A DNA stretch of 32,216 nt, from NCBI GenBank assembly GCA_017651515.1, contig JAGCCU010000037.1, positions 1-32,216 on the forward strand. The letters run 5' to 3'. This document shows, piece after piece, positions 3,285 through 31,803 of the stretch (position 1 is its first letter; every line of letters starts with the position of its first letter). Below the pieces are notes generated by a model. The model did not search any database. It was not told where the DNA came from and saw only the letters and a list, made by a program, of their open reading frames with translations. The position numbers and the translations under genes were made by a program. The DNA comes from Muribaculaceae bacterium (GTDB lineage: Bacteria > Bacteroidota > Bacteroidia > Bacteroidales > Muribaculaceae).

Positions 3285-5216
3285 CTAGAATAGTGAGAGC
3301 TGTCCAGTTCCATCGGGCTTTGGCTCGGGTAGAGGCTCGGGCTTGGGTTCGGGTTTTGGCTGTGGCTCAGGATTCTCAGAGATTTCTGATTCTGGTTCTT
3401 GAATCTCGGTTTCTGGTTCACTTTCAGGCATCAGCCAGTCTAGGTCATCGAGGTCGTCAAGGGTGGGCGAGTGCATGGCTGGCTTGAACTCGGGCTCGGG
3501 CCCGTGAATAGGTTCGATTTCCAGTTCAGGCTCAGGTGCTCTCACAGGTTCCGGTTCTGGCTCTGGTTGAGGCTTTGGTTCCGGTTCTGGCTCAGGTTGG
3601 GGCTCAGGTTCCGGCTCAAGATTAGGCTCTGAGATTTCCGAGATTAATGGCTCTGGTTGTGCCTCATGCCGGGGTTCTTGAGGTGTTTGAATAATCAGTT
3701 TGTCAGGCTCGTCATCAACAGCAACGTCGAATTCAATCAGATTACGCTTGTGGCCTGTTTCTTTAGGCTCTTGCTTCTGTTCTTGCTTTAGTTCGGCAAT
3801 ATGGTCGTTGCGCAATACAAGTTCGGCCTTTGCAACGGCGAGATCGTCGGACAGTTGCTGGATTTCACTTTGCGCTGCCACATTTAGCTTTTGTTGCTTT
3901 TCAAGCTCATGACGGGCGGCTTCAAGTTGTCGCACAGCCTCAATGTGCTGTTCTGCAATCTCACTGTTGCTCTTTGTTTTCTTGGTCAGTGTTTCGATTT
4001 GCTCTTTACTTGCCTTGAGTTCCTGCTCCACTTCAATCACATGGGCCATACGTTCCTCATCGGTTTTTTCCAGGGCCTGTATTCTGATTGAAGCCTTTGT
4101 GAGTTTTTCCTCTCTTGAGGCAATTTGTTTTCTGAGTTGCTGAACCTCATCTTTTGCCTTTTCGGCCTCCGAAGTGACAGTCGCTAATCTCTGCTCATAT
4201 TCGGCCTTGAGATTATCGGTAATGCTGCTTTGGTCTCGTTGCAGTGCTTCAAGTTTTGACTCGGCATTGTTTTTTGCTCTCAAAGCGCTGTCAGTTTCCT
4301 TCTTCAGACGTTCCTGTTCCTTGAGTGCAGTCATTTCGGCTGCCTGTGAAGTATGTAGCAATTGCTTGTATTCTTCAATTTCATTGAGCAGGTCTTCGTG
4401 CTTGTCGGTGGCTGCCGATGCGGTTTTTCGCAACGAGCTCATTTCCTCCCTGTAGTCATCGGCAAGAGTGGCAGCCGTAGCCATCTGCCGTTTCAGGTCA
4501 TTGATTCGGTTGTTGAGGTCGGTAATGGCGTTCCTGTATTTAAGTGAAGTGGCACTTTCCTGAGCTTCACGCTGCTCTAAAACCTGTTTTAGCCTTGCGA
4601 CCTCGGCGGCGTTGGAGTCTTTTTGCTGCTCAACGTTCGCAATCGCCTCCTTCACTCTTGAGTCGAGCTCGCTTTCCAGTTGATTGCGTTCTTTGATGAG
4701 TTGTTCATATCGTTCACGCAGTGCCTGGGTTTCGCTTTTTTGTTCTTCCAGCTTCTGCTGCCAGGTTTTCTCCACTTCGCCGATGCGTGCGGCTTCTGAT
4801 TTGGCTTTGTTGAGAGCTTCCTGCATGGCCTTTATTTCTCGCTGATGGGTGCTCCGGGCATCTTCAAGGGCCTGAGTGAGTTCCACCTCCTGCTTATGCA
4901 TGCTGTTTTCCATGTCGGCAACCCGCTGTGCAAGCATGTTGGCACGATGTTGAGCCACTTGCACACGGTGTTCAGCATCACTCTGTGAGTCGGCTTGAGT
5001 AACTGAAACTGTAGGTGCCGTGGAAACAGTCTCTTGTTGCTCAGTATCGGAGTCGCTGACGGTTGGCTCCTCGGATGAAGGCTCGCTTTGCTTGTCTCGT
5101 CGGAATGGGTTGACGTAAGGTGCACTCGACATGTCATAGTCGAGTTCATCATCCAGGTCATCGCCATTTTCGTTGAAGCCGAAGGCGTGCTTTAGTTTAT
5201 TGAAGTTAAAGGCCAT
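3285..5216 (-). CDS. Long coiled-coil protein with Pro/Glu-rich tail and C-terminal clamp-binding motif QLSLF
   Basis: 643 aa with no signal peptide or membrane segment, so probably cytosolic. Residues 1-40 are short and acidic ([11 protein letters not shown]). Roughly residues 80-480 are heptad-rich, charged coiled coil, as in SMC or filament-type proteins. From about 520 the chain is a low-complexity Pro-Glu/Pro-Lys linker with an inserted acidic patch, DDLDDLDWL. The last residues are DGTGQLSLF, and QLSLF is the consensus peptide that binds the bacterial DNA polymerase sliding clamp (DnaN), usually at the end of a flexible tail as here. The gene follows the receiver/PPDK-like gene by 39 nt and shares its promoter. 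No family name is recognised. A role as a clamp-tethered scaffold in replication or chromosome organisation is inferred from the motif only. Confidence 0.85.
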
Positions 5217-5255: not shown

Positions 5256-8200
5256 TTAAATGTCATCATCGTCATTGCTGTCTTGAGGCGGAATCAGTTC
5301 CATACCGGGTTTGAGAACTATTCCGTAACCGCGTGGGCCATTGATGGCGATTGGCAATGTCTGATCGAAGTGGACTATTCGCAGATAGTCGCTTTCATAT
5401 ACCGGCTCCTGATTCTTGATGAATTCAATGTCAAGCCAATTGTCGCCATCAATACCGTCGACAGTAAAATATCCCACTCCGAACGACGTGAGGTTCTGGA
5501 AGAAATGAGTGCCCTGACTGGGCTCAATTCTATTACCCTCTACTGCAGTCTCTACGATAAGCCTTGCCGCCGAAATGTGAGTCCATTTGACAGGTATTCC
5601 CAGAGCTTCGTCGCTCGACCCCCATCGTCCTGGCCCAATGAGAATATAATTCTCATTTCTGGCGGTAAAGTTACTATTTATTTTTTCAATTTCGGTTGCA
5701 ATAGTGACATTATTTGCAAAAGAAAATGCTTCGGGCTTAACCCACACGATGTCATGAATACCGTCGGTTGCTCCATGACCAAGGGCTTGGGTGCTGATTA
5801 TTAGAGCCTTGTCATGCGGCACGCTGAGTACGTCCTCGTTCAGCATCTCGCAACGATCCACCATAGGCCTGATTTGCAGCCAGTAAAGCGTTCCACGTTT
5901 GTCACTGGAAGAGTCGTTGTTCATGACAGCCGCGAATTCCACTTCCACAGGCCGTCCCATCTGCGTCTGCCCAGTGGTGAGCATGAAATTGATGATTGGA
6001 GCCAGTGGAAATGCATCATGCCGAAGTATGTTGGCAAAAGTGACTACCTTTCGTCCTGGCATGGCATCGGTATCTACCAGCCTTTCATTTTGATAGTCGA
6101 ATGTGGATACCATGTAGTGTAGCTCACCTCTGTCGGCAGCTTGTTGAATTGGCAATCGGGCAATATTGAAGCCTTCGTCGATGGAGAAGTTGGCTTTCTC
6201 GCATAGGTTGGTGTCAAGTGCGCAGAACGTGGTCTGGGTGTCACGCAGAGCCAGTTGCAAGGTGCTGGTCTGCAGCACATGTTTGGGGTGTCGAGGAGAG
6301 AAACGCAGCGACCTTTCGCCATCCACGATGTGCTTGCCCAGTCCTATTGCTACCTCACACACGCCATCAGTGGCCAGTTCTTCACCGGTGGGGTAGTAGT
6401 TCAGCGACCTTCCCACGCCGGCAAAGTGAGGATAATAGTATTGCCCGTGTTGACGGCCTACCACTTCCTGAATGATGACCGCCATCTTTTCCTGGTCAAT
6501 TACATTGCTTGTTGCCACCATGTAGGCCTTGCTGTCGCGATAGAACACCGAGGCATAAACTGCCTTGACAGCGGTCTCAAGTAGGGCGATTGAATTTGCT
6601 TTTTCGGAAAGGTGCGGTACCATGTATGTCGCATAGATTCCGGCAAACGGTTGGTAGTGACTGTCTTCGAGAAGACTGCTGCTGCGAATTGCTAGCGGAG
6701 ATTCAATCACGTCGTATATGGTGCTGAAGTCGGCAGCAAGCCGTTCTGGCAGCTTGGCTTTCAGGAAGGCCTCGAGAATCTCTTCATCGGGAGCATCCGA
6801 CAGTGCAAGCGGGTACAACCCATTCATCTCCATGAATTCATCAAAAATGTCGGTACACAACACGATGGTATGTGGTATGCGCACATCCACGCCCATGAAA
6901 TTCTCACACTCGGGGTTGTGCTTAATGATGGTGTCGATGAAAGCAAGGCCGCGGCCTTTACCGCCCAGCGAACCTTGACCGATGCGGGCAAAACTCGAGA
7001 ATTTGTCATAGCGGTCGGCACGGAATTCTGCCACCACACCTTGGTTCTTCATCTTGCGGTATCGCACAATGAGTTCGGTGAGGATTTGCCGCACCTCGTC
7101 GGCCTCGTGGATACTGTCCATGCGATGGGTTTTTGCTACTTGTGCAATCGGGAACAGTGCACGCGAGTACAGCCATCGAGATATGTCGTTACGCTGCCCG
7201 TGGTAGAGCAGTGAGTCATCAGGGATTTCTGAGAAACGGTACTGGAAGTCCTTGAGATTGCGCAGACGCAAGATCTCCTCATGTGTGTGAGGATTGCGCA
7301 CTATAAAGTCGCCGAAGCCGAATAATTGTGTGATTGTCTTACCTAGGTCAACAGGCAGTTTCTTAGAGTTCTTGTCGAGAAACACGCCGCCGAAGCTGGC
7401 CACACGGTCACGGTTCTCGCTCTCGCTCGATTCGATGATGATGGGCAGGTAGGGGTCGCGTCGGCGCAGCTCTTGAGCCAAGGTAATGCCTGCCGAGCGG
7501 TCCTTCACGCCATTGTGCTTGAAGGATACGTCACTGATCACACCGAGCATGTTGTCGTGGTATTTCTCATACAGAGCAAGAGCCTCTTCATAGTCACGCG
7601 CAAGCATCACCTTCGGACGGCCGCGCATGCGCAGCATGGCTTCGTGGGCATTGAGCGCTTCGGTAGAGAATATGCGTGACTGGTTGAGCACAAATTTGTA
7701 TATTGCAGGAAGCACCGATGAGTAGAATCGCACAGAGTCCTCAACAAGAAGAATCATCTGTACACCCACTTCTAGAACGTCGTGAGCAGCGTTCATCTTG
7801 TCCTCAAGAAGCTTGATGATAGCAACCAGTAACTCGACGTTGCCCAGCCAACTGAACACGTAATCCACGCCGCTGAAATCTTCCCCGGAAAGACGTCGCG
7901 ACACCTCGCGAGAGAAGGGGGTGAGCACGACAAATGGTATGTCGGGGTACTGAGCCTTGATTTCTGATGCACGCGAGAATGTCATGGTGACATCGCCGCC
8001 AGGCATGGCTATGACAAGGTCAAAGTGTTTATCAGCCAACATGGCATCGGATTGATCGTAGTCATTCACCAGAGTCACACGGGGTGGTGAACTCAGGTTG
8101 AGTGACATATACTCAAGGAAAATCTGTTCCTCGATACGTCCGTCCTCCTCAAGCATAAAGGCATCATACGTGCTTGCTATGAGCAGTACGTTGAATATGC

Positions 8201-8267
8201 GTTCCTGCATCAGGCTGTTGAACGCAGTGTCTTTTAGATATAGTTGGCTTACTAACGACGAATTCAT
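5256..8267 (-). CDS. Receiver-domain / PEP synthase-like ATP-binding fusion protein
   Basis: 1003 aa from the ATG at 8267. An upstream in-frame ATG at 8312 is rejected because it lies above the promoter. Residues about 20-145 form a degenerate receiver-like domain without an obvious phosphoacceptor. Residues about 170-320 form a second receiver, with VED ending at D177 and a phosphoacceptor-like D246 in VISDVS. From about 425 comes the ATP-grasp domain of PPDK/PEP synthase: QGSLGGKGRGLAF with K437, then IRSSSLLEDS, EVEFAAV and LYWLQIRPM. The swivelling phosphohistidine domain and the PEP/pyruvate barrel are absent; a conserved-looking module (ILIGPGRWGSSDEALGIP) ends the protein. It therefore cannot run the full PEP synthase cycle as built. 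A signalling or regulatory ATP-binding role is inferred. It is transcribed first, followed by the coiled-coil gene. Confidence 0.88.
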   Translation of the reverse strand: MNSSLVSQLYLKDTAFNSLMQERIFNVLLIASTYDAFMLEEDGRIEEQIFLEYMSLNLSSPPRVTLVNDYDQSDAMLADKHFDLVIAMPGGDVTMTFSRASEIKAQYPDIPFVVLTPFSREVSRRLSGEDFSGVDYVFSWLGNVELLVAIIKLLEDKMNAAHDVLEVGVQMILLVEDSVRFYSSVLPAIYKFVLNQSRIFSTEALNAHEAMLRMRGRPKVMLARDYEEALALYEKYHDNMLGVISDVSFKHNGVKDRSAGITLAQELRRRDPYLPIIIESSESENRDRVASFGGVFLDKNSKKLPVDLGKTITQLFGFGDFIVRNPHTHEEILRLRNLKDFQYRFSEIPDDSLLYHGQRNDISRWLYSRALFPIAQVAKTHRMDSIHEADEVRQILTELIVRYRKMKNQGVVAEFRADRYDKFSSFARIGQGSLGGKGRGLAFIDTIIKHNPECENFMGVDVRIPHTIVLCTDIFDEFMEMNGLYPLALSDAPDEEILEAFLKAKLPERLAADFSTIYDVIESPLAIRSSSLLEDSHYQPFAGIYATYMVPHLSEKANSIALLETAVKAVYASVFYRDSKAYMVATSNVIDQEKMAVIIQEVVGRQHGQYYYPHFAGVGRSLNYYPTGEELATDGVCEVAIGLGKHIVDGERSLRFSPRHPKHVLQTSTLQLALRDTQTTFCALDTNLCEKANFSIDEGFNIARLPIQQAADRGELHYMVSTFDYQNERLVDTDAMPGRKVVTFANILRHDAFPLAPIINFMLTTGQTQMGRPVEVEFAAVMNNDSSSDKRGTLYWLQIRPMVDRCEMLNEDVLSVPHDKALIISTQALGHGATDGIHDIVWVKPEAFSFANNVTIATEIEKINSNFTARNENYILIGPGRWGSSDEALGIPVKWTHISAARLIVETAVEGNRIEPSQGTHFFQNLTSFGVGYFTVDGIDGDNWLDIEFIKNQEPVYESDYLRIVHFDQTLPIAINGPRGYGIVLKPGMELIPPQDSNDDDDI

Positions 8268-8272
8268 AGCTG

Positions 8273-8304
8273 CAAATTTACTAATAAGCAGGCGAAATGC
8301 CAAA
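8273..8304 (-). promoter_or_regulatory. Near-perfect promoter that predicts a leaderless mRNA
   Basis: On the minus strand: TTTG at 8301-8304, a 20-bp spacer, and TAAATTTG at 8273-8280. Only five bases separate the -7 box from the ATG at 8267, so the predicted transcript begins at or next to the A of the start codon. An inverted repeat TTAAAC-AAA-GTTTAA sits at 8328-8342, upstream of the -33 box, and could be an operator. Confidence 0.65.
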
Positions 8305-8425
8305 TAAATCACAAGGTGAGAGTATTATTAAACAAAGTTTAAGTATTGCTGAACCGCATTATCTTTTATCTGAATTTATATGGAATTTCAGAGAAAAAGT
8401 AACTTTGGCGAAAACTAAATAGCGC

Positions 8426-8458
8426 AAAAAAAGCGAGCGAAATGTCGTTTCGCTCGCT
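8426..8458 (-). terminator. Intrinsic terminator of topA
   Basis: Perfect 11-bp stem, AGCGAGCGAAA (8432-8442) and TTTCGCTCGCT (8448-8458), with a 5-nt loop. An A-tract at 8426-8432 becomes the U-tract on the minus strand. It sits 25 nt after the topA stop codon. Confidence 0.9.
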
Positions 8459-8483
8459 CATGTAAAATCTTATGTTGGTATTT

Positions 8484-16882: not shown

Positions 16883-19372
16883 ATGAAATATAATGTAAAG
16901 GAAATAGCCGATGCACTGCGCACATCCGATGCGTGGCTCTTCTTCCCCGACGCAATGGTGAGCGAGCTGCTCACCGACTCGCGATCGTTGACCTATCCAC
17001 AGGAAACGCTATTCTTCGCCTTGCGCACTGCCAATGACGATGGGCATCACTATGTGGGGCACCTCTTCGAGCAGGGCGTGCGCAACTTCGTAGTCGACGA
17101 CATGGCCGAAGTGCCGCGTGAAGTGCTGGCAAAGGCCAACTTCTTCGTCGTCGAGGATACGTTAGAAGCGTTGCAGACGTTGGCTGGATACCATCGCCAG
17201 CGTTTCGACATACCGGTGATTGGAATCACAGGCAGTCGTGGCAAGACTACCGTCAAGGAGTGGCTGTATCAGTTGCTAAAAGATGATTACCGCATCGTAC
17301 GCTCACCACGCAGCTATAATTCGCAGATTGGTGTACCGTTGTCGTTGTGGGACATCGAAGACGATACCACGCTGGCTATTATCGAGGCAGGCATCTCTAC
17401 GGTGGGAGAGATGGCGCGACTGCAAGCCATGATTCGCCCAACTATTGGCGTGATCACAAATATCGGCTCGGAACACGACGACGGCTTTGCCTCGATGACC
17501 GAAAAGGCACAGGAAAAAGCGAAAATCCTGAGCAGTTGCGAGAATATAGTATATGGTGCCGACTATCACCTGGTGACAAAGACCATTGCCCCTCTGCTTG
17601 AGGCCGACGTGGCACAGGAGCTGGCATGGAGTGCCAAGGGCAACCCTGCGGCATTGCAAGTCACTTCTGTACAGCGAAACGACGACAGTACGGTCATCAA
17701 CTATACTTACTGTGGCGCTGAACAGTTGGTGACTGTGCCGTTTGATGCCGACCGCGACGTGGAGAACGCCATCACCTGTCTGGCTGTGCTGCTGATGATG
17801 GGCATTGAGCCTGAAATAATAGAGGAACGTATGCGCACACTCACGCCCGTAGGCACGCGTATTAAGGTTATTGAGGGTGTGAACAACTGCACTATTATCC
17901 ACGACGGATACACCAGTGACTACAATTCGCTCACCCCTGCACTTAACTTCATGATGCGTCGTGCTGGAAATCATTCGGGCACTGTGATATTGAGTGACTT
18001 GAAGCCCGACACTTATTATGGCGACGAGCTTTATCTGCGTACAAACGAACTTCTGCGTAGCAAGGGCGTGCATCGCCTGGTGGGCATCGGTCCCGACATG
18101 TGCAGCTATGCCAGTCTGTTCAATGGCGTACAAATCACGCATTTCTACACTACGACACAGGAGTTTATCGATGCGATGACACCTGGTGATTTTGAAGACG
18201 AGACTCTGTTGCTGAAAGGCTCTCCAGAATATGAGTTTGACCAGATTATTGAAAGGTTAGAGGCAAAACGCCACCAGACTGTGATGGAAATCGACCTCAA
18301 TGCTCTGGCATATAATTTCAAGTTCTTCAAGTCGATGGTGAAGCCCACTACACGCACGGTGGCGATGGTAAAGGCCAGTGGCTATGGTACAGGCAGCTAC
18401 GAAGTGGCTAAGACTCTTCAGGATCGTGGCGCCGATTATCTGGCTGTGGCAGTGCAGGATGAAGGGGTGGACTTGCGAAAGGCTGGCATCACCATGCCTA
18501 TCATAGTACTCAATCCCAGCGTTGTGAACTACAAGGCGATGTTTGTGCATCGTCTGGAACCCGAAGTCTATAGTCTTGCCGAGTGTGAAGGACTGATAAA
18601 GGAAGGTGGCAAGTATGGTGCACACGATTTTCCTGTTCATATAAAAATCGACACTGGTATGCACCGTCTGGGATTTACACGCGAAGAATTACCGGCATTG
18701 GTTGAACTGCTGAAAAATCAGGATGTACTTCGTCCGGCATCGGTATTTACACACTTGAGTGTAGCCGACGACCCGACGCAAGACGCGTACACTCATCATC
18801 AGTTTGAGCTTTTTGCGGAGTGTGCCGAATGGCTCCAGCAAAATTTCGACCACTATTTGTTGCGACATGTGCTCAACACCAGTGGCATTGTGCGTTTCCC
18901 AGAGTGGCAGTGCGACATGGTCCGCATAGGCATAGGCCTATATGGTGTCGCTACTGTCCCAGGTGATGCAGAGGCACCACTGCAGACGGTAGCATCGCTG
19001 CACTCGGTCATAATCTCAATTAAAGAATGGCCTGCTGGAACGACAATTGGCTACGGACGCAAAGGCGTGCTCGAGCGTGACTCACGCATTGCCACTGTGA
19101 CAATTGGATATGCCGATGGCTTTGATAGGCACTTTGGCAACGGGCGAGTGAGTATGTGGGTCGATGGCAAGCTTTGTCCCACTGTTGGCAATGTGTGCAT
19201 GGACGCAGTGATGATTGATGTCACCGATATCGATTGCCATGTTGGTGACCAAGTCGAGATTTTCGGAAATCACGTCCCAATTGAGCAGCTGAGCGATGCT
19301 CGTGGCACGATTGGCTATGAGATTCTCACCAGCATATCGCCACGTGTCAAGCGTGTCTATTTCCGTGAATGA
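16883..19372 (+). CDS. murF-alr: Bifunctional MurF ligase / alanine racemase
   Basis: 829 aa fusion typical of Bacteroidetes. Residues 1 to about 460 are MurF, which adds D-Ala-D-Ala to the UDP-MurNAc-tripeptide using ATP. Its P-loop is GITGSRGKTT at about residues 113-122, and it also shows EAGISTVGEM and TNIGSEH. Residues from about 468 are alanine racemase, which makes D-alanine from L-alanine with PLP. The PLP lysine is K497 in AMVKASGYGTG and the second catalytic tyrosine is Y724 in TTIGYGRKG, with TIGYADGF and VCMDAVMIDV near the end. Joining the racemase to the ligase links the supply of D-Ala to its use. The protein is cytosolic. The start is fixed by the GSCFA stop 12 nt upstream. 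Confidence 0.97.
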   Translation: MKYNVKEIADALRTSDAWLFFPDAMVSELLTDSRSLTYPQETLFFALRTANDDGHHYVGHLFEQGVRNFVVDDMAEVPREVLAKANFFVVEDTLEALQTLAGYHRQRFDIPVIGITGSRGKTTVKEWLYQLLKDDYRIVRSPRSYNSQIGVPLSLWDIEDDTTLAIIEAGISTVGEMARLQAMIRPTIGVITNIGSEHDDGFASMTEKAQEKAKILSSCENIVYGADYHLVTKTIAPLLEADVAQELAWSAKGNPAALQVTSVQRNDDSTVINYTYCGAEQLVTVPFDADRDVENAITCLAVLLMMGIEPEIIEERMRTLTPVGTRIKVIEGVNNCTIIHDGYTSDYNSLTPALNFMMRRAGNHSGTVILSDLKPDTYYGDELYLRTNELLRSKGVHRLVGIGPDMCSYASLFNGVQITHFYTTTQEFIDAMTPGDFEDETLLLKGSPEYEFDQIIERLEAKRHQTVMEIDLNALAYNFKFFKSMVKPTTRTVAMVKASGYGTGSYEVAKTLQDRGADYLAVAVQDEGVDLRKAGITMPIIVLNPSVVNYKAMFVHRLEPEVYSLAECEGLIKEGGKYGAHDFPVHIKIDTGMHRLGFTREELPALVELLKNQDVLRPASVFTHLSVADDPTQDAYTHHQFELFAECAEWLQQNFDHYLLRHVLNTSGIVRFPEWQCDMVRIGIGLYGVATVPGDAEAPLQTVASLHSVIISIKEWPAGTTIGYGRKGVLERDSRIATVTIGYADGFDRHFGNGRVSMWVDGKLCPTVGNVCMDAVMIDVTDIDCHVGDQVEIFGNHVPIEQLSDARGTIGYEILTSISPRVKRVYFRE

Positions 19373-22098: not shown

Positions 22099-23940
22099 AT
22101 GACAAATCAATTCATTAATTATATGAAACAGTTCAACATCTTATCCCTTGTGATGGTTGTGCTTATGTTTATGTTGCCATGCACTGTAAAGGCTTTGCCA
22201 TTTGTACCTACCACTAATCCAAACTTATCAACAAATTATTGGTATTTTATCAAAACCAACGATAAGTATATTGGCGGTAGTTCTAACTATGAGATTACGT
22301 TCTCGACAACGGCAAATGTAAACAACGAAATGCAGTTGTGGTGCTTCGTGGGTACTGAGAACGATGGTTATAGAGTTTACAATAAGGGTCTCGGCAAGTA
22401 TATTGTTGAAGATACTTTTTTCCCAACTGAAGATCCCAATAGTAGATACACTTACTATGAAGCGATAGATGAATCTACATTCTACCTTCGTTTCTATATT
22501 CCTAATCAATGGCACTACCTGTATCAAGAAACCTATAGCGACCAATACGGTTTTATGGACTACATGGCTGCCGATCCCAATAATAGAGGGGTGTTTAGTG
22601 CAATTGAAGCAATAAAGGGTTCTGATCAACCGGAAGAGCTCTCGTGGACACGCTACGACACTGACGGCGTTGGATACAGGTTCGTAGAGGGTGGAACTAG
22701 TTCCAATACAGCGGAAATTGCCTCCAATCTTTGTGACGGCAACGCATCGACAAAGTATCTTGGCACGCCAGGAAGCTACTGGGTTACTATTGAGGCAAGT
22801 ACTGATGTGGCTGTCAAGCAGTACAGTCTAGTAACTGCTAACGACTCGCGTAGGTGCTACGATCGCACAATACGCAGCTGGAAGTTGCAAGGTTCTAACG
22901 ACAACGTCAACTGGACTGACATTGACCAGCGCAGCGATTACCCTATGCCGTTCGCCGATCAACAAGAGGTGGTGTTTACTGTCAACGACACTCACAAGTA
23001 TCGCTACTTCAAGCTGGTGACCCTAGCAGGTACAGGATCGTTGCTGCAATTGAGCGAGTTGTGGATTAACGGCCAGACGCACATATGGGATTCTCCTACA
23101 ATCACCAATTCAACTTGCGGCACACAAGGAACAAATTGGAGCGAGTGCACCGATTGTCATGCCCGTAGAATGGATTTGCTTCCACCTACAGGAGAACATA
23201 ACTATGTAAATGGCGTGTGTGCGGTGTGTGGCTTGGAAGAGGGCGTGACAGTGTTGCTTCATAACGGACAGTCTTTACCTTATAATGCAAAGTCGCAGCA
23301 TTTCAATACGACGGAGTATTCTTTGGAAGAAATATGGCTTCAAGTAGACTATGATGACAGTAGTTGGATGGATTTGACTTTACCTATTGCAAGCCCAGGC
23401 CATTCTAATGGTCCGTTTAACGGTTTGATGTATAACTCTAATTGGTATGGTGAGTACAATTTATATTTTATTCGTCGCCCATTCAACATTTCTGTTGTAG
23501 ATCCTAATGCAACTTATTATTTCCACTGCATCCATGACGATAACATGAAAGTTTTTGTAAATGGACATGAAGCTATTAACCAGAATGGATGGACTGAAAC
23601 ACCCGATGGATGCAACTGGGAAAACAGCTATGAAACATTCGAGTTGCCAGCATCTTTATTTCAAAGTGGAGATAATATACTTGTAGTGTGGATTGAGCAG
23701 AATTGGGGCGGTGCTTATTTCGACTGCGAACTCATTATGAAGCAGGGGAATAACAATCCCATCACTGGTGACGTGAATGGAGATGGCTTGGTGGATGTTG
23801 AGGATGTTAATGCCGTCATTAACATTATTCTGAAGGTTAAATCTACAAGTGACTATCCTGGTAATGCCGACCTGAGTGGCGATAACATCGTAGATGTGAT
23901 AGACGTAAATAGTATAATAAATATAATACTTAAAAAATAG
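22099..23940 (+). CDS. Secreted multidomain protein with F5/8C domain and C-terminal dockerin
   Basis: 613 aa. The ATG at 22123 (MKQFNILSLVMVV) is an alternative start with a neater signal peptide; either leads to cleavage near TVKA. Residues about 35-175 form an unknown beta-rich domain (LSTNYWYFIKTNDKYIGG). About 190-325 is a discoidin/F5-8C carbohydrate-binding module (ASNLCDGNASTKYLG ... IRSWKLQGSNDNVNWTDI ... YRYFKLV). About 335-375 is a cysteine-pair ribbon (CTDCHARRM ... CAVCGLEEG). About 380-550 resembles the galactose-binding beta-sandwich of GH2-type proteins (NMKVFVNGHEAINQNG). Residues about 555-613 are two dockerin calcium loops (DVNGDGLVDVEDVN, ADLSGDNIVDVIDVN). No catalytic domain is seen, so a glycan-binding or assembly role is inferred. 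Confidence 0.87.
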   Translation: MTNQFINYMKQFNILSLVMVVLMFMLPCTVKALPFVPTTNPNLSTNYWYFIKTNDKYIGGSSNYEITFSTTANVNNEMQLWCFVGTENDGYRVYNKGLGKYIVEDTFFPTEDPNSRYTYYEAIDESTFYLRFYIPNQWHYLYQETYSDQYGFMDYMAADPNNRGVFSAIEAIKGSDQPEELSWTRYDTDGVGYRFVEGGTSSNTAEIASNLCDGNASTKYLGTPGSYWVTIEASTDVAVKQYSLVTANDSRRCYDRTIRSWKLQGSNDNVNWTDIDQRSDYPMPFADQQEVVFTVNDTHKYRYFKLVTLAGTGSLLQLSELWINGQTHIWDSPTITNSTCGTQGTNWSECTDCHARRMDLLPPTGEHNYVNGVCAVCGLEEGVTVLLHNGQSLPYNAKSQHFNTTEYSLEEIWLQVDYDDSSWMDLTLPIASPGHSNGPFNGLMYNSNWYGEYNLYFIRRPFNISVVDPNATYYFHCIHDDNMKVFVNGHEAINQNGWTETPDGCNWENSYETFELPASLFQSGDNILVVWIEQNWGGAYFDCELIMKQGNNNPITGDVNGDGLVDVEDVNAVINIILKVKSTSDYPGNADLSGDNIVDVIDVNSIINIILKK

Positions 23941-29894: not shown

Positions 29895-30728
29895 CTATAA
29901 TTTTAGGATGATATTGATGATGGCATTCACGTCCTCCACGTCGATGATTCCGTTGCCGTCTATGTCACCTTTGCCGGGATAGTCACTCACGGACTTCAGC
30001 TTCAGGATGATGTTGATGGCGGCATTAACGTCTTCCACGTCCACGATTCCACTGCCGTCAATGTCACCATCGTCGAAAATATCATCATGAGGAATAGTAG
30101 TAATCCATTCTTCTGCGCTTTCAGATCGGAAGATTTCATCACCATCACGGAATATCCATAGTACTTTTGAATAGATAATTCCAGGTAGAATGGGCTCTTC
30201 TATTTTATACCCTAATAAACAGCAGCCTCTATACAGTTCTGAAACCCTGCCTATATCCTTGATTATAGCCCCACTATCATTCATGATAAACTCCATTTGC
30301 TTACCACCCAGCCATATCTCTTGTATACCGTTGACATCCAAATAGGTGCGTTCCTTGATTAATGAGCTTTCTCCAGTGAGATACTCGTAATAGACTGGTG
30401 CATCCCCATGCCAATCAAAGTCATAAATCATAATTGGTTCAGGGTAATCATCTGTTAAAAGCCACACCTTACTTCCATCTTCGTGTATCCATCGGTTGAG
30501 AGGTGTTTTGTTTAATAAAACCCTCTTGCATGTAATACTTCTTACGATAGTATCTTCTCCTATCTCATACAAAAATGAGTATGTGGTATCCAATGGTGCA
30601 TAATCAGGCTCGCAATGCACCTCCTTCCAAATCATTCCGGCAGGGAAAAAATTACCTGCAACCGTGATTGTGGTAAAAGCTATGGTAAGAGCTATTGCAA
30701 ATAACAGCGTAATAATTTTTCTGTTCAT
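29895..30728 (-). CDS. Secreted protein with C-terminal dockerin pair
   Basis: 277 aa. The N-terminal signal peptide (MNRKIITLLFAIALTIAFTT...) is followed by a domain of about 180 residues, related in layout to the next gene (GMIWKEVHCEPDY ... YSFLYEIGEDTIVRSITCKRVLLN). No catalytic motif is seen. The last ~60 residues are two type I dockerin calcium loops, DGDIDGSGIVDVEDVNAAI and DIDGNGIIDVEDVNAII, separated by LKSVSDYPGKG. Dockerins classically dock on cohesins; no cohesin is visible here, and in Bacteroidales the partner is generally unknown. It belongs to the dockerin cluster at the right end of the window and has no obvious promoter in the 184-bp gap upstream. Confidence 0.85.
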   Translation of the reverse strand: MNRKIITLLFAIALTIAFTTITVAGNFFPAGMIWKEVHCEPDYAPLDTTYSFLYEIGEDTIVRSITCKRVLLNKTPLNRWIHEDGSKVWLLTDDYPEPIMIYDFDWHGDAPVYYEYLTGESSLIKERTYLDVNGIQEIWLGGKQMEFIMNDSGAIIKDIGRVSELYRGCCLLGYKIEEPILPGIIYSKVLWIFRDGDEIFRSESAEEWITTIPHDDIFDDGDIDGSGIVDVEDVNAAINIILKLKSVSDYPGKGDIDGNGIIDVEDVNAIINIILKL

Positions 30729-30912: not shown

Positions 30913-31803
30913 TTAAAGCTTCAAAATGATATTGATTATTGCATTTACGTCCTCCACATCGATGATACCGTTGCCATCCATGTCACCGTTGCCGGGATAG
31001 TCACCCACGGTCTTCAGCTTCAGGATGATGTTGATGGCGGCGTTAACGTCTTCAACATCCACCATGCCACTGCCGTCAATGTCTCCATTCGCGTTATCGC
31101 TCCTGTAGGCTTTGCCATAGTAGATGATGTTGCCGTCGGCATCCTCTATGTGATGCAGACCAAGATATCTGTAGTTGCTCGCAAATAATGCACGTTCGTA
31201 GTATGGCATCAGCAGGTCTCCAAATATATCGCTGTCGAAACCGACACCTTCTATGAACAGTCCTTGTTCAGCTCCAAGATATGGGTGAATATATGAATAA
31301 ACCTCACTTTCTTGATTGAGAAATGGCTTGTAGCCTTCAAGCTTAAAGTGTCCATTTTCATCAAACTCATATAATTTCATATCCTTTTCTCCGTCATAAT
31401 ACCAATCATATGTAGACCAGTATAAGAAATCTGTCATGCTACCCGATGAGGTGTAAAAGTAATCATCACGATTATATGCATACACAACCCGGCCTTCTTC
31501 GCGTAAAAGTGCAATTGGTTCGGTTCTCGAACATGGAAATGTCAAAGTTTCATTCCAATCAACATCTGAGTAACGATAGCACTTCTTGTAGGTCATACCT
31601 TCAACAACGGTGTCACCAATCAACTCTATTGTATAGAAGCGAGTATAAACATCAGGATAAAATTCTGGATGATTATAATCAGTAACTGATTTTGTCTCAA
31701 CGCATACCCATTTCACGCCTTCACGCAGCAATGGAACATACTCATCAGCTTGCATGATGCCAAAACTCAGCAACGCAACCAATAATAATACAATCTTCTT
31801 CAT
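30913..31803 (-). CDS. Secreted protein with C-terminal dockerin pair (tandem paralog A)
   Basis: 296 aa with signal peptide MKKIVLLLVALLSFGIMQA. The N-terminal module (LLREGVKWVCVET ... YTIELIGDTVVEGMTYKKCYR) is a Bacteroidetes extracellular domain without known function. The middle contains LGAEQGLFIEGVGFDSDIFGDLL and LGLHHIEDADGNIIYYGKAY. Two dockerin loops end the protein (DIDGSGMVDVEDVN and DMDGNGIIDVEDVN). The segment from about GFDSDIFGD to the stop is closely repeated in the next gene, showing a tandem duplication. The gap to that gene's stop is 79 bp, filled partly by a short direct repeat. Confidence 0.87.
   Translation of the reverse strand: MKKIVLLLVALLSFGIMQADEYVPLLREGVKWVCVETKSVTDYNHPEFYPDVYTRFYTIELIGDTVVEGMTYKKCYRYSDVDWNETLTFPCSRTEPIALLREEGRVVYAYNRDDYFYTSSGSMTDFLYWSTYDWYYDGEKDMKLYEFDENGHFKLEGYKPFLNQESEVYSYIHPYLGAEQGLFIEGVGFDSDIFGDLLMPYYERALFASNYRYLGLHHIEDADGNIIYYGKAYRSDNANGDIDGSGMVDVEDVNAAINIILKLKTVGDYPGNGDMDGNGIIDVEDVNAIINIILKL

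Follow-up and report, generated by a model that had tools for sequence, protein, structure and literature searches.

What does a long coiled-coil protein do with an ending that resembles a docking peptide for the replication sliding clamp? The window, by which we mean the entire analyzed stretch of 32,216 nucleotides from a Muribaculaceae bacterium, contains such a gene on its minus strand (3285..5216), encoding a protein of 643 residues that was originally picked for its ending. The first-pass annotation had described a 643-residue frame, a long coiled coil, a Pro/Glu linker of about 110 residues and the C-terminus QLSLF, all of which we confirm from the sequence. We establish the anatomy of the protein, its conservation and the gene order, and we read these as pointing to the role of a scaffold. 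Specifically, we propose that the protein is a chromosomal, clamp-binding coiled-coil adaptor of several Bacteroidales families with its N-terminus probably at the membrane, a reading to which we assign a probability of roughly 0.55.

Architecture of the protein

The gene was delineated from its open reading frame and from its relatives. In order, the protein comprises a basic N-terminus, an acidic stretch, the sequence PYVNPF, the coiled coil, a linker carrying the sequence DDLDWLMP, and QLSLF, which is followed by the stop codon. Residues 1–14 (5175..5216, minus strand, as for all protein features below) form a conserved basic hydrophobic N-terminus in the alignment and, by composition and permutation tests of weak outcome, a candidate membrane-binding helix. 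PYVNPF occupies residues 33–38 (5103..5120); in the alignment, P..NPF is invariant among 13 sequences, the 643-residue protein included, and it is absent from many more distant members. The coiled coil spans residues 69–483 (3768..5012), as judged by periodicity and by matches to SMC coiled coils, and coincides with the longest proline-free run of the protein (415 residues, starting at residue 69); the core-residue periodicity peaks at 3.55 over residues 83–478 (1000 shuffles, p = 0.004). The linker was recognized by its composition (residues 528–638; 3303..3635), Pro and Glu accounting for 55% of its 111 residues. Within it, the alignment reveals an acidic-Trp motif, 590DDLDWLMP597 (3426..3449), where Asp590, Asp591, Asp593, Trp594 and Pro597 are invariant across the 13 aligned sequences. 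Of 138 members, 134 have a Trp residue at most 130 residues from the tail, for the most part within D-x-D-W-L. The predicted clamp-binding motif, QLSLF, was assigned by conservation and forms the extreme C-terminus (residues 639–643; 3288..3302).

Members of the family range from 212 to 782 residues, and the length of the coiled coil varies. Four features go beyond the first-pass annotation: the conserved N-terminus, the DxDWLxP motif, an internal 141-residue domain of many relatives and the usual gene neighbor. The two ends are what nearly all members keep, and the layout is, as far as sequence can tell, that of an adaptor.

The claim that the family is unnamed also holds. No curated model matches the 643-residue protein above its cut-off, Pfam and NCBIfam giving only coiled-coil models far below theirs, and PHROGs and PADLOC give nothing. 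The score against SMC_prok_B is 27.2 bits (cut-off 567.35) and covers the coiled-coil stretch only; 38 of 40 members match the same model with E-values of up to 0.01. SMC and Rad50 proteins likewise have a coiled coil, but their ATPase head domains are absent here, and kinship to SMC, Rad50 or defense proteins was rejected as the resemblance is limited to the coiled coil. Among solved structures, the family profile picks out diverse coiled-coil or helical proteins (best 60 of 94 matches). A mobile-element origin was likewise set aside, the 140-residue domain of a Barnesiella member having no match in phage or plasmid records. We found no literature on the family among open-access full texts, most matches being judged from listings. 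The family is real, conserved and, as far as searched, undescribed, and its members are predicted clamp clients.

Conservation of the C-terminal tail

We collected 175 members, which were reduced to 138 distinct complete proteins by removing copies alike over the last 150 residues. Left out were nine members truncated where a contig or locus ends (L097, L182, L192, L199, L231, L239, L249, L256 and L263) and three non-family rows (L159–L161). Also outside the 138 are three relatives from family f67 without the motif, a short member from G067 and four late finds, the last five all having the motif.

Among the 138, a total of 135 end in Q-x-x-[LIM]-[FW] followed by 0–2 residues and the other three in variants, counts that refer to related sequences rather than independent events and for which the variable linker serves as internal control. 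The commonest cores are QLSLF (38), QMSLF (34) and QMSLW (31). The column entropies of the motif are 0, 1.08, 1.03, 0.17 and 1.07 bits over the 138 proteins in an alignment anchored on a Q-requiring pattern, the Q being present in all of them. Entropy rises to 2.29–2.67 bits in the three residues before the motif and to 2.93–3.70 bits for residues −30 to −4. The first-pass annotation had predicted that the last five residues would be the most conserved part and that the linker would vary, and this is what the alignment gives: 0–1.1 bits for the motif versus about 3 bits per linker column. The annotation holds on its main point, but the tail is Q[LM]xL[FW] and not strictly QL[SD]LF. The make-up of the linker differs among families and the tail does not. 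The linker is Pro/Glu-rich in the genus of the window, and in f22 and f105 it is a charged Glu/Arg/Lys stretch, perhaps helical.

Could the tail be a chance ending, or the product of drift in low-complexity sequence? On the DNA alone, the tail is unremarkable. Searching the own genome (87% complete) for the pattern gave two matches, one being the coiled-coil gene and the other lying antisense within a longer frame and not ending any listed frame of at least 60 residues; a reversed control pattern gave three, so that by this measure the pattern is not commoner than its control. Chance is nevertheless excluded for practical purposes because the tail is conserved, the same ending occurring in only one of 1018 non-family frames of the same loci (open from one stop to the next over 200 residues or more, some of them not genes), and the adjacent low-complexity linker is not conserved.

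Relatives within and beyond the family

A match to the protein was found in 15 of 61 related genomes. Matches touching the Pro/Glu linker alone (G018, G033 and G034:C2) were dropped, since the fetched stretch held no gene with the N- or C-terminal pattern. Twelve full-length members from the genus all end in RQ[LM][ST]L[FW], having been gathered by that ending; the N-terminus had provided the match for 11, all with the tail, and the C-terminal part for the twelfth (G027).

To avoid circularity, a profile was built from residues 1–44 in 13 sequences (alignment A2). It matches 126 of 297 genomes of the own family (f1), in 25 of 30 genera, with one match per matching genome. Sixty of the 126 matches were fetched, and 58 of these end in Q-x-x-L-[FW] plus 0–2 residues; one of the other two genes is cut by a contig end and one ends in QLSIDW. 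Eight more all have the tail, bringing the coverage to 68 of 126. Of 393 genomes of the order, 18 were picked up by another N-terminal profile (A3). Five of these belong to the own family, six to f22 and five to f105, and the other two, like one additional row, turned out to be unrelated. QMSLW closes 10 of the 11 genes from f22 and f105, and QMTLW the remaining one. Taken over the proteins picked by N-terminal profiles, the motif or a variant is present in 76 of 76 complete proteins and 24 of 24 genera, the variants including QLSIDW, QPSLFDF and QTSLW. Four further genera (g32, g57, g89 and g115) keep the tail, one of them in a member of 212 residues.

The internal domain of about 141 residues, recognized by a rough pattern, occurs in 51 of 77 relatives, in one case 22 residues shorter, and aligns without internal gaps in 31 sequences from six families. 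It is absent from the 643-residue protein, in whose genome the domain profiles have no match. A search with the domain alone matched 32 of 393 genomes of the order, and 42 of 374 at a looser limit. Matches with E below 1e-40 fall in f1, f22, f28, f60, f86 and f105, and those above 1e-4 in the looser search were taken as background. Despite different N-termini, 11 of 11 complete genes found by the domain in f60, f28 and f86 keep the tail, with the endings QMSLW, QMLLW, QMKLW, QMKLWD and QMKLWDL. A scan of named genomes, in which the best 80 of 108 loci were considered, yielded 74 complete genes, all with a Q ending; six have odd forms (QLSIDW, QLSFEDFG, QMSLWDDEY, QLSIWA, QPSLFDF and QTSLW). 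Labels among these best 80 of 108 loci include Muribaculaceae, Bacteroidales, Porphyromonadaceae, Barnesiella and Bacteroidaceae. At the level of the phylum, the domain profile hits 6 of 345 genomes, with E-values of 3.9e-6 to 9.5e-4; the matches are partial, lie in frames of 479 to 2410 residues and were taken as coiled-coil background.

Homologs without a QL–LF ending, which by the first-pass annotation would refute its claim, turned up in one lineage, and 135 of 138 other members keep an ending of the Q-x-x-[LIM]-[FW] type. The three f67 relatives (domain match E 1.2e-10 to 5.4e-8) have the basic N-terminus and the coiled coil and no clamp motif; the loci concerned are L305–L307 and L323. 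They offer a natural experiment on whether the role passed to another protein. The G067 member, of 212 residues, retains the N-terminus, the domain and QLSLFS, and most of its coiled coil is gone.

In genomes without a match, the region behind topA was inspected in 13 cases. Four genomes of the genus first scored as absent (G006, G007, G017 and G024) carry the gene there, ending in DPRQLSLF. The other nine (G030, G099, G228 and G335 in the genus; G062, G079, G085, G088 and G089 in other genera) have no coiled-coil gene behind topA, a check that covers this position alone, as the gene may lie elsewhere in those genomes.

The tail as a sliding-clamp ligand

The published clamp-binding consensus is QL[S/D]LF or, more generally, QxxLF, and the C-terminal QLSLF of Bacillus subtilis PolC binds DnaN with a KD of 3.8 µM (PMC12309361). 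For transposases, the C-terminus is the usual place of such motifs (PMC4549789). The family has the marks of a pentapeptide clamp client, namely a peptide of the Q-x-x-L-F type at the terminus and conservation above the surroundings, with the three f67 relatives as the exception.

We used the replicative polymerase of the same genomes as a local reference. DnaE and DnaN are both present in eight of eight genomes tested, and SL[FW] stands at one aligned internal position in nine of nine DnaE copies, in the form QNSLF in the own genome and with Trp in place of Phe in one copy. The Q lies two residues before the Ser in two of the nine, three before it in four, and is absent in three. The core of the local polymerase motif is seemingly the same as that of the tail, the Q being looser, which makes this an imperfect control that supports docking. 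In the genome G403 (L275, L283, L287 and L295), DnaE is encoded twice, and DnaN has an additional, shorter match whose frame runs off the end of its locus.

Alternatively, some protein other than DnaN could receive the tail, provided that it binds Q[LM]xL[FW]. Position 2 is often Met and position 5 often Trp (QMSLW in 31 of 138), which is looser than QL[SD]LF; the usual neighbor is a PPDK_N/receiver gene and no replication gene; and seven of nine DnaE copies lack a Q at the standard place. Against this stand the fit of the tail to QL[S/D]LF and QxxLF (PMC12309361), its C-terminal place, and the SL[FW] core that DnaE in these genomes also has, with Trp in one copy. We consider another partner improbable, and docking on the DnaN clamp is strongly indicated by the sequences.

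A candidate membrane-binding N-terminus

What, then, does the other end hold? The mean net charge is +2.1 in residues 2–13 and −6.1 in residues 14–30. N-termini differ between families (MSFFxxLKRAFGF, MKSKFFKSMHALW, MKLNFKKSLLSIF and MNWNFLKQLY), with the basic hydrophobic character kept. Because the residues change while this character stays, a lipid surface fits better than a protein pocket. The helical moment of the N-terminus is weakly above column permutations for residues 2–12 (p = 0.009 and 0.034); other windows tried gave p = 0.056–0.12, and the moment of the 643-residue protein's own N-terminus, 0.24, is below the shuffled mean of 0.30. Together, these data suggest weakly to moderately that the candidate N-terminus lies on the inner face of the membrane.

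Proposed mechanism and comparison with known systems

In the mechanism that we propose, the last five residues would dock in the hydrophobic pocket of DnaN, for which the case is strong. The long coiled coil probably gives a dimer or larger oligomer and would thus be multivalent for clamps, and the coiled coil and the linker (Pro/Glu here, Glu/Arg/Lys-rich in some families) would carry the tail away from the N-terminus. Weak single tails on an oligomer should act best where clamps crowd, that is, on freshly replicated DNA behind the fork; oligomeric weak tails would favor clamp-rich places as with CrfC (PMC6374313). Speculatively, new DNA might be tied to the membrane or to another scaffold, or sister forks to each other, and the outcome might be to help replisome placement, nucleoid segregation or the timing of division. 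If the proposal is correct, long coiled-coil adaptors would constitute a new link from replication to cell architecture in abundant gut bacteria, found in Muribaculaceae and, motif included, in five other Bacteroidales families, with little but the two ends kept. To our knowledge, enzymes and small regulators make up most of the clamp clients in Escherichia coli and B. subtilis.

CrfC of E. coli is a homo-oligomer with a clamp-binding pentapeptide that binds several clamps and holds the nascent DNA of sister forks together (PMC6374313); the pentapeptide is common to both proteins, as a prediction in ours. CrfC has a GTPase domain, the motif QLALP near its N-terminus and no typical membrane-binding motif (PMC6374313). 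In contrast to CrfC, the coiled-coil protein has its motif at the extreme C-terminus and no enzyme domain that we could find. Scans with Pfam and NCBIfam gave no dynamin-like GTPase domain and no ParB-type DNA-binding/CTPase domain in the 643-residue protein, and neither type is among the families listed for 40 members (25 of 58 Pfam, 25 of 34 NCBIfam).

YabA has a C-terminal domain that binds zinc, which is not seen in the coiled-coil protein, and also binds DnaA. In low-GC Gram-positives YabA is oligomeric and contacts DnaN (PMC4705661). The 643-residue protein has no YabA family match in the Pfam and NCBIfam scans, the presence of a YabA model in these libraries being unconfirmed.

Noc binds specific DNA sites via a ParB-type domain; unlike in Noc, DNA would here be recognized through the clamp. 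Noc of B. subtilis is peripheral and brings DNA to the membrane; its N-terminus is short, conserved and amphipathic, with a variable spacer behind it, and its membrane helix can be replaced by an unrelated amphipathic helix (PMC4331003). The N-terminus of the coiled-coil protein recalls this helix. By extension, a peripheral-membrane tether might read new DNA by the clamps left on it rather than by sequence, tying the nucleoid to the envelope and placing or timing division. We hold this extension to be tentative and would not bet on it; if true, the protein would do for these Bacteroidales what Noc- or SlmA-type systems do elsewhere.

Gene neighborhood

Upstream of the coiled-coil gene lies a gene on the same strand (5256..8312, minus) encoding a PPDK_N (ATP-binding) domain and a weak receiver-domain match, as identified by a Pfam scan and gene order; 39 bases separate the two. 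Of 157 loci, 155 have at least 900 bp upstream, and in 126 of these such a PPDK_N/receiver gene stands immediately before the coiled-coil gene in the same orientation; some genomes are counted twice, as they occur in two collections. A median of 36 bp lies between the end of the PPDK_N/receiver match and the start codon. In 13 of 13 loci taken from seven families, the coiled-coil gene is preceded by a frame of about 990 residues that has the neighbor's N-terminus, and L323, the only f67 locus checked for gene order, has the usual arrangement. A terminator-like hairpin of 12 pairs (8431..8459, minus strand) lies between topA and the PPDK_N/receiver gene, found in a consensus scan that is itself no evidence, with 9 sites versus a mean of 11.3 in shuffles. 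Given the hairpin after topA, the likely transcription unit is therefore the PPDK_N/receiver gene plus the coiled-coil gene.

This neighborhood bears on a further alternative, in which the clamp is bound as proposed and the N-terminus docks on a protein, for example the PPDK_N/receiver neighbor or an initiation factor, so that the protein would be a soluble regulator or fork tether like YabA or CrfC. The evidence from the tail serves this alternative equally, the upstream gene in 126 of 155 loci and in all 13 loci of the seven families favors it, and the amphipathic signal of the N-terminus is weak. On the other hand, the N-terminal residues are not kept between families; the neighbor occurs without a relative of the coiled-coil gene downstream in 20 loci of other families (by eye); and in 29 of 155 loci no PPDK_N/receiver gene is upstream, five having topA there and several being from f22. 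Given the same absences, an obligatory partnership with the PPDK_N/receiver protein is not supported. We regard protein docking as unlikely, if well worth keeping in mind, and prefer the membrane-associated adaptor. PPDK_N/receiver matches occur in 89 of 104 genomes of the order, in some of which a longer relative of lower identity is the sole match; a second, longer copy is often present in genomes of the order. Gene order, without a tree, suggests that an ancestor shared by a group of families gained the coiled-coil gene downstream of the PPDK_N/receiver gene.

Elsewhere in the window, a Mur ligase domain and an alanine racemase are joined in one gene (16883–19372, plus strand). Three further genes (22099–23940, plus strand; 29895–30728 and 30913–31803, minus strand) encode proteins with signal-like N-termini, as judged by eye, and dockerin-like repeats at the end; against Pfam Dockerin_1, one of the three scores above the cut-off and two slightly below.
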